From the NCBI GenBank assembly GCA_017306155.1, contig JAFKJB010000007.1, positions 62,001-126,000 of the forward strand: a stretch of DNA of 64,000 nt. The letters are read 5' to 3'. A program made the position numbers and the translations under genes. Origin of the DNA: Nitrosospira multiformis. GTDB taxonomy: Bacteria > Pseudomonadota > Gammaproteobacteria > Burkholderiales > Nitrosomonadaceae. A model generated the notes under the pieces. That model made no database searches and was not told where the DNA came from. It was given only the letters and a program-made list of their open reading frames with translations. This document shows positions 37,166-40,362 of the stretch, piece by piece (positions within the stretch are counted from its first letter, which is position 1; each line of letters starts with the position of its first letter).

Positions 37166-37912
37166 TTACTCGCATTCTGTCACAGCCTTGCGCCATACGC
37201 TGGCGAGCCAGGGTTGTTGCTCGCGTGGAAGACCTGCCGGGCGATAGTAATGGCCAAGCTCGACGAAACCCGCGCCGGACATATGACGCCTCCAGCCGCC
37301 AATATCGTGATATACGCAATAACGCCCATGATTCCAGCCCTCCTCGTTATTCCCGCGAGGATTGGAGCTGAACAGTACTCCGCCCGGTTTCAGCGTTGCC
37401 CACAGTTCCCTTAGTATGCGCGGCAATTCACCGCTCGGCACGTGGAACAGAGAGGCATTCGCGAATATGCCATCAAAGTATTCTTCAGGCAGATCGAGCT
37501 GGAGGAAATCCTGCTGCCATATCTCGCAACCACTATGGTTAGCCGCCATTTCGACAAACCGCGTTGCCCCTTCCAGCCCGACCGCTATATGACCAAGATC
37601 GGCAAAAGATTTCAGGTCACGGCCGGGGCCGCAGCCCAGATCCAGTATCTTGAAGGGTGGAGGACTTTCGATGTGGCGCAGCAATGCAGCAATATTCTGG
37701 CTGACATCATGATCTTTGGTACCCTCCCGGAATGCTTCAGCTCTTTCGTTGTAACTGTTCAGGGTAAGATGGGAGAGTTTTCCGGGATCCGATGAATCTG
37801 TTTTCACGGCAGCTTGCACGAATAGGGTAAAGATCAGGCGGGCATTCTGTCCGTCTGTGGCGCGAATTGAGCGAAAAGAGTCGAGCGAAAAGCACTTACT
37901 CTCTGGCAACAC
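37166..37912 (-). CDS. Class I SAM-dependent methyltransferase
   Basis: A Rossmann-fold methyltransferase with motif I ILDLGCGPGRDLKSF and the downstream YFDGIFANASLFHVP and LKPGGVLFSSNPRG. Substrate is unknown. The open frame begins at a GTG (37912) overlapping the DUF2063 gene, but residues matching the family begin near TLNSYNERAEAF, so a GTG at 37807 is as likely. The close coupling to the DUF2063-DUF692 genes suggests, but does not prove, a tailoring role in that system; general metabolite methylation is the alternative. Confidence 0.82.
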   Translation of the reverse strand: MLPESKCFSLDSFRSIRATDGQNARLIFTLFVQAAVKTDSSDPGKLSHLTLNSYNERAEAFREGTKDHDVSQNIAALLRHIESPPPFKILDLGCGPGRDLKSFADLGHIAVGLEGATRFVEMAANHSGCEIWQQDFLQLDLPEEYFDGIFANASLFHVPSGELPRILRELWATLKPGGVLFSSNPRGNNEEGWNHGRYCVYHDIGGWRRHMSGAGFVELGHYYRPAGLPREQQPWLASVWRKAVTECE

Positions 37913-38654
37913 CCAGCAATGCGCCGCGAGCCTGAAGATCAGTCATGATCTTCAGGCCGCCTTGCGTCACGACTTCGGGTGAGGGATGCCTGCTTTCAAT
38001 CGTGATGATCTCAAGAGCGGCACGTCCCGTGTGCTCTTCCAGCACAAGCAGATCTATCAGACGCGCAGTAAAGGCGTTTATTTCTGAAAATTGAACCTCG
38101 TCATCCGCGTCACGAAACAGCAACAGGTAAGTTTCTGCCTGGGTGATGCGAGCGCGCGGACGAATGTGATGGACTGGCCAGTGATAGCAAAGATTGGCAA
38201 GTACCGGATTCAAAAGAGGCCGTCCCTCGAGCAGATTACCGGTGGCATCGATCATCCTCCAGTCAGGCATGCCCGTTGATGTGGACAATGCCAGTTCCAT
38301 CCATTCGTAGTGCGCGAGTTCCAGGAGAAACGCCGGGTAGCTTTCAGGGATGGCGCCTTTACTCGCCAGAAATTCAATAAACTCACCGGCTATCTGATGA
38401 AAAAGAGGAGAACGGCTGCGGTGCGCAATGAGAAAGGCGCGCACCAGCCTCGACCATTGCCGCGGTCCCAGCACATCTCGGGTCACCGGGAAGCATCTGA
38501 GAAGAAAGCCGTCGAGATTCTCGTAAACCAGCCTGCTATATATGCGCATGCGTCGCGCGTCGACTCCAGGTGGAACAGGGTTTGCCCCGGGATTGCGAAG
38601 GTGCGCAGTAAAGGCGTACTGGAAGCGCTGGAATTCAGGAAGCTGGACAGACAT
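37896..38654 (-). CDS. DUF2063 partner protein of the MNIO (BufC/HvfC-like)
   Basis: A protein of about 252 residues. The N-terminal DUF2063 domain has FQRFQYAFTAHLRNP and RMRIYSRLVYENLDGFLLRCFPVTRDVLG, typical of proteins named as putative DNA-binding but now known as partners that hold the precursor for DUF692 oxygenases. It overlaps the DUF692 gene by about 20 bases, so both should be made together. ATG 38654 is chosen; ATG 38669 is also possible. It probably binds the EF-hand precursor at 39495-39911. Confidence 0.9.
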   Translation of the reverse strand: MSVQLPEFQRFQYAFTAHLRNPGANPVPPGVDARRMRIYSRLVYENLDGFLLRCFPVTRDVLGPRQWSRLVRAFLIAHRSRSPLFHQIAGEFIEFLASKGAIPESYPAFLLELAHYEWMELALSTSTGMPDWRMIDATGNLLEGRPLLNPVLANLCYHWPVHHIRPRARITQAETYLLLFRDADDEVQFSEINAFTARLIDLLVLEEHTGRAALEIITIESRHPSPEVVTQGGLKIMTDLQARGALLGVARE

Positions 38655-39489
38655 CGCCTGAATGCGCATGCCGCGCCTGGATCAGTGCGATGCGCTGCAC
38701 TTCCCGCATCAACTGCTCGAGCGGAGGAATATTGAAATCACGCTCGAGCAAAGTCGGCACAACACTGTGCATGCCATAGGTCTGATCCAGCAGCGACCAT
38801 ACCGGATCGATTACATCGGCGCCGTGAGTGTCGATGATCAGATTCTCCGCCTCCTTATGATGCCCGGCCATGTGCATATACACGATGCGATCGGAAGGCA
38901 GAGTACGGATGAAGTCCACGGGATCGTAGTCGTGGTTAATACTGTTGACGTAAACGTTATTGACATCGAGATGAAGATCGCAGTCCGCCTCCAGCAGCAC
39001 AGCCTGGATAAAGTCCAATTCACTCATCTCGGTGGCAGGCGAAGCGACATAAAACGATGCATTTTCCAACGCGATACGCTGCCCGAGAATATCCTGTGTA
39101 CGGCGAACGCGTTCAGCGACATATTTTACCGCTTCCTCCGTAAAAGGGATCGGGAGCAGATCGTACAGATGACCATCGTCAGAGCAATAGGAAAGATGTT
39201 CCGTATAAAGAAGTATCCGGTGCTGATCGAGGAAATGGCGGATCTTTTGCAACAGCATTTCATCCAGCGGAGCGGGACCGCCGATTGAAAGAGAAAGACC
39301 ATGGCAGACAAAAGGATAGCGCTCAGTAAAAAAGCACAGATCCCGTGCCGCACCTCCGCCAAGATCGATCCAGTTCTCGGGAGCGATTTCAAAAAAATCG
39401 ATGGCGTCGGGGACGCCGCTTTTCAGCGCAGGAATGAGCTCCCGCCGGAAGCCCAGCCCCACGCGGGCGAAGCGTGGGAACTGTTGCAT
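38635..39489 (-). CDS. DUF692 multinuclear non-heme iron oxygenase (BufB/MbnB-like)
   Basis: A 284-residue TIM-barrel enzyme of the MNIO family. The expected metal ligands are visible: His63 (CHGLSLSIGG), Glu97-His98 (YTEHLSY), Glu142-Asn143 (LENAS), Asp175 and Asn177 (LHLDVNNVYVN), His206 and His210 (MHMAGHH), Asp220 and His222 (DTHG) and Glu249 (LLERD). Family members modify cysteines of ribosomal precursors to oxazolone-thioamide, thiooxazole or related groups, often for copper binding or resistance. The gene starts five bases after the EF-hand protein gene and overlaps the DUF2063 gene. Confidence 0.95.
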   Translation of the reverse strand: MQQFPRFARVGLGFRRELIPALKSGVPDAIDFFEIAPENWIDLGGGAARDLCFFTERYPFVCHGLSLSIGGPAPLDEMLLQKIRHFLDQHRILLYTEHLSYCSDDGHLYDLLPIPFTEEAVKYVAERVRRTQDILGQRIALENASFYVASPATEMSELDFIQAVLLEADCDLHLDVNNVYVNSINHDYDPVDFIRTLPSDRIVYMHMAGHHKEAENLIIDTHGADVIDPVWSLLDQTYGMHSVVPTLLERDFNIPPLEQLMREVQRIALIQARHAHSGDVCPAS

Positions 39490-39494
39490 ATCAG

Positions 39495-39911
39495 TTATTT
39501 CTTCATCTGGCCATGAGGTGCTGCCGTTGCGCCCCCGGACTTGCTTTTTGCAAAGCTGTCCGCTTCCGCCGGGTCGACGACTCCATCCTTGTTTGCGTCA
39601 ATCTTGTCGAAGATGCCTTCGTGATGCTTGATAAATTCTTCCTTGGTCACTTTATTGTCTTTATTCTTGTCCGCCAGCGACATGCCGCAATTTCCCTCCG
39701 CCGCTTTTGCGCCTGATCCATATTTGTTTGGATCCACTCTGTCGGCGTAAGCCACTACATAACGCTCGTTTAACGACTGCATGACGAAAGGATTGCTTGC
39801 CTTGCTGTCCGCCTCACTGTCGCCCGCGAAAACAATGGGAGAGGCGCTGAGGCCGGTAGCAAGGACCGACCCTATGACTGCAGAAATCCTGGATTTTTTT
39901 TTGTCTTGCAC
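39495..39911 (-). CDS. Secreted EF-hand protein with EGNCG motif, probable MNIO substrate
   Basis: A 138-residue protein. GAGGAGA lies seven bases before a GTG start. A Sec signal peptide runs to about Ala29 (SASPIVFA). The mature part has one cysteine only, Cys75, inside EGNCG, the core motif modified in MNIO substrates such as HvfA. Two canonical EF-hand loops follow: residues 81-92 (DKNKDNKVTKEE) and 105-116 (DANKDGVVDPAE). The C-terminus is Lys/Gly/Ser-rich. Position directly before the DUF692 and DUF2063 genes makes it the likely precursor. Modification, metal and role are inferred; a plain calcium-binding protein is the alternative. Confidence 0.87.
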   Translation of the reverse strand: MQDKKKSRISAVIGSVLATGLSASPIVFAGDSEADSKASNPFVMQSLNERYVVAYADRVDPNKYGSGAKAAEGNCGMSLADKNKDNKVTKEEFIKHHEGIFDKIDANKDGVVDPAEADSFAKSKSGGATAAPHGQMKK

Positions 39912-40362
39912 AGTTAGTTCTCCTCAAATCTGGAAAAAATATTATGTCACAGTTTGGCAGGAACGGGAGCCGATTCCGCTGACCCTGGGGCGCGATCGGG
40001 AACAGGAAATTTTCCCGGAGAGGCTTGCAGCAAAATAATGCATTTATTTATTTCGGGGGTATTCAAGGACTGAAAATTCTGCAAGAATTCGTGCTGCCCC
40101 ATGTGCCCTCCTATATGTTCCACAGGAGTTGAACATGAAGAGGCTGCGATTTTGTCATGAACAGGAAGGAGGATGAGAGCCTGGTTCTTAAGCTAAACTG
40201 TAGGATTTCCGTTCCTGGCGAAACCTTGGCAAGTTTCTGCCAACCGCATTGCTCTCAGAGCGCATCAACTGAACCGGAGATGAGTTATCTGTATAATGGG
40301 TTGTTTTTAAATAGCAGTTGCATTGTTACACGTCACCCAGCAATGGAAAGGAAATACTGACT
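39912..40362. other. Divergent intergenic region between the MNIO operon and dksA
   Basis: This 451-base stretch must carry promoters for both directions. On the minus strand a CATAAT-like element lies about 30 bases before the GTG start of the EF-hand gene, but I cannot pair it with a good -35 box. On the plus strand no clear box is seen. Short frames here lack support. Confidence 0.4.

Follow-up and report, generated by a model that had tools for sequence, protein, structure and literature searches.

The MNIO enzymes HvfB and FonB convert the cysteines of EGKCG motifs to 5-thiooxazoles, with copper binding reported, and HvfB requires its partner HvfC (PMC13097082, PMC13419390; for these and the other papers cited by PMC number, our statements refer to the sections that were available to us). 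FonBC modified a substrate with two EGKCG repeats, which lost 8 Da (about 4 Da per Cys), and not one with a single repeat (PMC13097082 section 12); before the Cys it tolerated Ala, Arg and Thr but not Phe or Glu, and Asn is not among the variants named in the available sections (PMC13097082). The term EF-hand does not occur in PMC13097082. Fusions of EF-hand_5 with a short Buf_EGKCG domain have been described as putative precursors encoded before MNIO genes, for which a function in the homeostasis of copper and Ca2+ or in signalling was suggested; the same authors noted several precursor genes with one MNIO per genome and rare precursors without an MNIO (Antoine et al. 2025, PMC12452194). In Pseudomonas aeruginosa, the gene of EfhP (PA4107) adjoins the DUF692/DUF2063 genes PA4106/PA4105 (PMC4053335); EfhP is a two-EF-hand protein predicted to be periplasmic, which binds Ca2+ with a dissociation constant of 13.7 uM (PMC9132961) and carries four EGKCG repeats (PMC11559002). 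A term search of the mBio 2024 EfhP paper returned no mention of PA4106, MNIO or DUF692. Here we have analysed a locus of this kind in Nitrosospira multiformis, contained in a stretch of 64,000 nucleotides (hereafter the window; GenBank assembly GCA_017306155.1, contig JAFKJB010000007.1, positions 62,001 to 126,000), in which the gene of a secreted EF-hand protein with a single EGNCG core precedes those of an MNIO, a DUF2063 partner and a methyltransferase.

On the minus strand, the four genes lie in succession from 39911 to 37166 (Table 1) and encode P0001 (EF-hand protein), P0002 (MNIO), P0003 (DUF2063) and P0004 (methyltransferase). Among named homologues, the closest come from N. multiformis (91-93% identity). 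The GTG start of P0001 is preceded by a GAGGAG-like ribosome site, and its basic and hydrophobic N-terminus, judged by eye to be a signal peptide, ends in VFA before GD. The only cysteine of the protein is Cys75, in EGNCG, and Pfam recognised EF-hand_5 (36.1 bits, cut-off 25.9) and EF-hand_1 (33.5 bits, cut-off 25.4). Open reading frame (ORF) reading and Pfam, with the signal assessed by eye, confirmed the original prediction of a GTG-started protein with a signal, a lone Cys75 in EGNCG and two canonical loops. The MNIO gene starts five bases past the EF stop codon and is overlapped by the DUF2063 frame over 35 bases, both of which had also been predicted and agree with the coordinates.

P0002 scored 343.7 bits with PF05114 and 428.5 bits with the HvfB model NF003818 (cut-off 360); with the BufB model it scored 259.8 bits, below the cut-off of 310, and it is therefore not of BufB type. 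P0003 exceeded the cut-off of the HvfC model NF050145 (261 vs. 142 bits). The P0001 gene stands directly before an HvfB-type MNIO and an HvfC-type partner, which is the gene order of HvfA/captophorin precursors. Residues R15, R16, D251 and F252 of P0002 correspond, by motif match rather than by alignment with FonB, to the FonB specificity/catalytic residues R15, R16, D249 and F250, and these R15/R16/D/F residues are those of the EGxCG group (PMC13097082 section 14). The claim that the MNIO has all expected metal ligands was supported indirectly, through the HvfB model score and a collinear alignment with PDB 3bww. A PF05114 search identified one MNIO in the genome of the window.

We searched 125 Nitrosomonadaceae genomes for P0001, P0002 and PF05114. 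In what follows, "unlinked" denotes that the stretch retrieved around a gene, in many cases just ~600-1500 bases per side, contains no MNIO. Within the genus, the EF gene is followed by the MNIO gene in 23/23 genomes, far above chance, and the linked gene is single-core in 22 of them and multi-core in one (G112). In the group g4, the EF gene lies directly before an HvfB-type MNIO in eight of nine genomes; in the ninth (G120, 74% complete) we found no MNIO and only a partial EF match. A different arrangement dominates in Nitrosomonas (g3), where the linked EF form was present in G046; seven other genomes read have a gene for an EF protein with an ExxCG-type core, but no MNIO gene immediately after it. 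Linked EF forms also occurred in Thiobacillus and Hydrogenophilales records. At class level, a sample of 369 genomes contained HvfB over the cut-off in at least 117 and matches to the A1 profile in at least 108, the latter comprising both multi-core HvfA without EF-hands and EF chimaeras; the loci of this sample were read for all but about L249-L253.

The core Cys was kept in all 32 Nitrosomonadaceae cases of an EF gene directly before an MNIO (23 in the genus, 8 in g4 and G046). A loss of this cysteine in homologues beside the MNIO had been proposed as the observation that would speak against a precursor; within Nitrosomonadaceae none was seen, and the precursor reading was not refuted. A P0001-type EF protein is encoded in 47 family genomes that were classed by reading. 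Of these, 38 have a P0002-like MNIO (at least 60% identity) together with the Cys, seven have neither, two have the Cys without an MNIO and none has such an MNIO without the Cys; these genomes are not independent points, and the tally excludes GHxC-only Nitrosomonas genomes, unread EF matches and the partial G120.

The genomes with neither belong to a sister lineage (g2), which provides a natural control. An HvfB-type MNIO was found in 0/8 g2 genomes, an EF homologue is present in seven, and all seven homologues have Tyr in place of the core Cys. Together with the 32 conserved cases, this supported the predicted role of the EF-hand protein as a likely MNIO substrate. G003 has an MNIO of BufB type (328.5 bits, cut-off 310), and G002, which gave no EF match, a distant one (32% identical to P0002). 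In a tree of 78 proteins (loci up to L101, minus the copy L001, L095 from G017, and L097; built on few columns, with only strong forks used), the seven g2 proteins form one group (89/81) and fall into a clade of 28 rows (100/100) that also contains the single-core proteins linked to an MNIO, referred to as class A. All 50 rows outside this clade have the Cys, so its loss in g2 is the simpler reading.

One g2 genome keeps a trace of the operon. In G004 (BJGV01000003, L172), a decayed DUF2063 lies in two different frames directly behind the intact Tyr-bearing EF gene, with 44 C-terminal residues (E 2e-12, identity up to 59%) and ~26-35 residues of the middle (best E 5e-5) recognisable; no MNIO was found. 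In the other g2 genomes, tblastn with 28 MNIO/DUF2063/methyltransferase queries over ~3 kb behind the EF gene (~0.6 kb in G006) detected no DUF2063 fragment. Two weak "MNIO_L044" matches (G003, G021) were set aside, since the frame of this query extends into the EF gene. The leader pattern [NSD]PF..[QKR].L occurs in 19/22 class A proteins vs. 1/7 g2 proteins. The constraint on the EF module is alike in the two sets: over 46 codons, with pairs of pS under 0.05 dropped and several pairs saturated, the median ratio of nonsynonymous to synonymous differences (pN/pS) was 0.14 in g2 (21 pairs) and 0.16 in class A (226/231 pairs). Thus, cysteine and leader are tied to the presence of the enzyme, and the EF-hands are not.

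We have then examined the position of the core relative to the EF-hands in 119 distinct EF-pair proteins, deduplicated over the core/EF stretch and required to have two loops 22-28 residues apart; all rows entered this count, and the loci were picked by search rank, not randomly. The Cys is located exactly six residues before loop 1 in 38/42 MNIO-adjacent proteins, in 7/7 proteins encoded in tandem upstream of another EF gene and in 35/70 unlinked ones. The 31 unlinked proteins without an EGxCG-like core are mostly of the Nitrosomonas GHxC type, plus the seven g2 Tyr proteins. The distance between loop starts is 24 in 116 of the 119 proteins (12 residues between loops), the distance from leader to first core varies between 19 and 73 (a single negative value being a pattern artefact), and distances between cores favour 5. 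In a Nitrosospira paralogue (L083, 365-1180, and L203), the EF module is duplicated to four loops and EGxCG occurs at -6 of both modules. This arrangement and the fixed -6 register suggest, at the level of sequence, that the last core is part of the EF module. A further secreted EF-hand family of Nitrosomonas carries a motif of GHxC type, or one resembling it, ahead of loop 1 (L097, L102-L104, L106-L108, L110, L111 and most of L218-L237), with no linked MNIO in the stretches fetched.

The AlphaFold model of P0001 (alignment of 38 rows) had a mean predicted local distance difference test score (pLDDT) of 56.9, and its confident part was limited to residues ~80-120. Its only helices span residues 90-104 and 114-125, and a Foldseek search of the model against the PDB gave no match under E 0.3. 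The region of low confidence would be consistent with a core that occupies the place of the entering helix, and says no more than that.

The tree separated class A from class B and from class C with its kin. Class B (20 rows) is unlinked and mostly has one EGRCG core, followed in the proteins read by long Gly/His/Arg-rich tails. Class C and its kin mostly have two or three cores; in seven genomes they are encoded in tandem ahead of class A, or they are themselves linked (g4, G046, G112). In three genomes of the genus, an EF-less three-core HvfA-like gene (EGKCGEGKCGEGKCG) lies directly upstream of the EF gene (L011 2041-2331, L013 2075-2308, L019 1092-1325). Only classes A and B were found in the genome of the window, where the A1/A3 profiles gave two proteins among the matches listed. 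The same genome contains 25 EGxCG-like DNA matches, only two of them within such proteins; since a control pattern gave 26, most of these matches are due to chance. With two EGxCG EF-hand proteins among the matches listed, each single-core, an MNIO that works on EGxCG proteins in this genome would be expected to modify single cores. The second of the two, an EGRCG protein with a Gly/His/Arg-rich tail (L093 1482-2069, G000:C23), is encoded beside ATPase-like and argJ-like genes, with cytochrome bc1 genes a few kb off (names assigned by reading). A selenocysteine in the core was considered for several g4 matches marked "1 TGA" and rejected, as the frames of G119, G121 and G123 show an ordinary stop past the EF module.

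Taken together, the operon probably makes an exported EF-hand protein that is modified by the MNIO at a single site. This reading builds on the gene order, the homology, the register, the conservation of the Cys beside MNIOs and the coupled absence of MNIO and Cys, all of which were computed here. In the cytoplasm, the HvfC-type DUF2063 partner would hold the precursor via its N-terminal region (signal peptide and conserved NPFxxQxL), and the HvfB-type MNIO would oxidise Cys75 of EGNCG to one 5-thiooxazole. Ring formation and copper binding are what the chemistry of related enzymes would lead us to expect. Sec would export P0001 after its modification. Judging from the register, the ring would be placed six residues before the first Ca2+ loop, in the position of the usual entering helix, and a soft-metal ligand (probably for Cu(I)) and the Ca2+-binding EF pair may form one module; Ca2+ binding would be in line with the canonical loops and with that of EfhP. 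The same MNIO probably also serves the unlinked single-core paralogue (G000:C23). As a conjecture, Ca2+ and ring might affect one another, and this ammonia oxidiser might use the product as a sensor or buffer of copper.

Several points weigh against this reading. AlphaFold gave no confident structure at or before Cys75, and the proposed geometry of Ca2+ and ring is derived from the sequence register only. Four of the 42 MNIO-adjacent proteins (L208, L212, L271 and L279, all outside Nitrosomonadaceae) have no Cys at -6, each having one 3-9 residues before the loop. The change from Cys to Tyr is probably one evolutionary event in seven genomes, with a relic in one of the seven, and the nesting of g2 within class A is moderately supported (86/77). 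Two genomes have the Cys and gave no MNIO: Nitrosomonas mobilis G021 (99% complete, 110 contigs; L150/L183), with an EGKCG EF protein, and G017 (80% complete; L095), with EAPCG and the Cys seven residues before the loop. Finally, the enzyme might fail to process a lone core, given that FonBC modified the two-repeat and not the one-repeat substrate (PMC13097082 section 12). This conflict counts against the proposal as much as it adds to its interest.

The FonBC result and the two genomes with Cys and no MNIO found are also what would be expected if Cys75 stayed unmodified, P0001 being a plain periplasmic Ca2+-binding protein and the MNIO acting in trans on the unlinked paralogue or on another substrate, for which the second EGRCG EF protein of the same genome (L093) would be at hand. 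However, that paralogue is single-core too and meets the same single-repeat problem. The adjacency in 23/23 genomes, the lack of both MNIO and Cys in g2 and the remnant of DUF2063 that follows the EF gene in G004 also speak against this explanation, which we regard as unlikely. It is somewhat doubtful, yet easier to defend, that the product is an ordinary HvfA-like copper sponge (captophorin) with its core reduced to one, in which the EF-hands provide solubility or anchoring and Ca2+ has no link with the modification. The family does grade into EF-less multi-core HvfA through the three-core genes upstream of the EF gene, and multi-core EF proteins exist elsewhere. Against it, one core makes a poor sponge, and the two EGxCG EF-hand proteins among the matches listed for the genome of the window have one each; the EF module is constrained even where the Cys is gone, which argues for a role of its own, and a fixed -6 register would be unexpected for a mere tag. 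Within the reading that P0001 is modified at a single site, we tentatively entertain a stronger form, in which the core Cys is integral to the EF module: a lone 5-thiooxazole might replace the entering helix at a fixed distance and create a two-metal module for Ca2+ and Cu(I), a post-translationally built sensor and not a copper sponge, with an MNIO for which, in contrast to FonBC, one core would be enough.

The methyltransferase P0004 matched PF08241 with 58.6 bits (cut-off 21.2). The long GTG reading of its gene meets a stop at residue 33 in four near relatives, and ATG, GTG or TTG occurs at residue 36 in 11 of 12 orthologue loci checked; the most likely start is hence GTG 37807, for which GTG 37819 was dropped after the orthologue comparison. 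From this start, the gene begins 88 bases past the DUF2063 stop and does not abut DUF2063, contrary to what had been proposed. An orthologue is present in 21/23 genomes of the genus, always beside the operon, on the same strand and downstream of DUF2063, and in 0/102 other Nitrosomonadaceae genomes (search at E 1e-30). G103 and G112 keep the EF-MNIO-DUF2063 trio without it, and an HI0933-like oxidoreductase neighbour was likewise not found beside the trio in these two genomes. The methyltransferase is accordingly not a constant partner; it is genus-specific and probably dispensable. It might still serve in tailoring, by methylating the product at the modified cysteine or elsewhere, as its position on the same strand, downstream of DUF2063, in 21 genomes would allow. 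We consider this improbable in view of the trios and the other family genomes that lack it, the 88-base gap and the failure of every model of methyltransferases acting on ribosomally synthesised and post-translationally modified peptides (RiPPs) to reach its cut-off on P0004.

Upstream of the operon, the element TGTGACATAATATTT was invariant in eight aligned upstream regions and resembles a -10 region; a consensus scan gave no sigma-70-like site. A conserved 44-base block lies further upstream. Its 19-base centre is exact in 12/23 genomes of the genus and has 3-8 mismatches in eight more; the block was not found in G103 and G112, and the upstream region of G108 ends at the contig end. No second exact copy was found in the genome, and no Rfam match exceeded the gathering score. 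Two interpretations of the block were rejected: a sigma-54 site, whose spacing was one base off the consensus, and a short open frame, for which there was no common start codon.

Table 1. Features of the locus (positions in the window)
Feature	Position	Strand	Basis
Promoter-like TGTGACATAATATTT, directly upstream of the EF gene	39937..39951	minus	upstream alignment
44-base block GGCAGCACGAATTCTTGCAGAATTCT....GCTTGAATACCCCC with GAATTC...GAATT(C) dyad	40055..40098	minus	conserved upstream of operon
P0001, secreted EF-hand protein of 138 aa (starts with GTG), one Cys; single-core, class A	39495..39911	minus	ORF reading, Pfam
Putative signal peptide, residues 1-29	39825..39911	minus	by eye
EGNCG core, residues 72-76; Cys75 codon 39687-39689	39684..39698	minus	sequence reading
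EF-hand loop 1, D81-E92; starts six residues past Cys75	39636..39671	minus	sequence reading, Pfam
EF-hand loop 2, D105-E116; 12 residues past loop 1	39564..39599	minus	sequence reading, Pfam
P0002, HvfB-type MNIO (DUF692), 284 aa	38635..39489	minus	PF05114, NF003818
P0003, HvfC-type DUF2063/NGO1945_C partner (PME1/RRE), 257 aa	37896..38669	minus	NF050145, Pfam
P0004, class I S-adenosylmethionine (SAM) methyltransferase; most likely start GTG 37807, open frame up to 37912	37166..37807	minus	PF08241, orthologue comparison

In multi-core precursors, what one thiooxazole does is obscured, and a natural one-core substrate reduces the matter to a one-residue question. The locus is also relevant to EfhP of Pseudomonas, which has been studied as a Ca2+ sensor.

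Among known systems, lanmodulin is likewise a secreted EF-hand protein, and P0001 gave weak matches to it (NCBIfam E 0.0038, PDB E 0.0026). Successive lanmodulin loops are separated by 12 residues, a spacing that P0001 shares, and have Pro at loop position 2, which is absent from the P0001 loops. P0001 has two loops only and scored 17.3 bits with the lanmodulin model NF053806 (cut-off 135), which places it outside that family. P0001 gave no match to any bufferin model of Pfam and NCBIfam (DUF2282 or the 6/12-Cys precursor definition), nor to the HvfA repeat models NF050137 (KCGExKCG_twice) and NF050188 at E 0.1, so that annotation by the latter would miss it; its relatives L240, L245 and L165 exceed the NF050137 cut-off. 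The captophorins (HvfA/oxazolin, gonophorin, fontiphorin) share with the P0001 system an HvfB-type MNIO, an HvfC-type partner, an exported precursor, an EGxCG core and, by analogy, a probable 5-thiooxazole; they are multi-core (six in oxazolin, seven in fontiphorin, in the sections available), whereas P0001 has one core and matches no HvfA model. EfhP, likened here by description, is like P0001 a two-EF-hand protein encoded beside DUF692/DUF2063 genes, with four repeats against one core.

Similar in layout are the Buf_EGKC/EF-hand_5 chimaeras. P0001 has their hydrophobic N-terminus (by eye), short EGxCG region and two C-terminal EF-hands, as judged against the wording of PMC12452194 section 15 (no 17-residue repeats in the EGxCG region), and the chimaeras likewise have an N-terminal signal peptide or predicted transmembrane helix, a short core region and two EF-hands. 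P0001 differs from them in its single core and in having EGNCG rather than EGKC, and the available sections describe neither the fixed register nor a sister lineage lacking both MNIO and Cys, nor the relic (PMC12452194). The original prediction had set this system apart from known operons; it is not different in kind, being preceded by these chimaeras (PMC12452194) and by EfhP-PA4106-PA4105 (PMC4053335). Our literature search, which covered material other than subscription papers and supplements, returned no single-core or Nitrosospira case. The gene cluster is real, well conserved and of an already described kind, and what is new, relative to the literature searched, is the single-core form, the fixed -6 register and the joint absence of MNIO and Cys with its relic.

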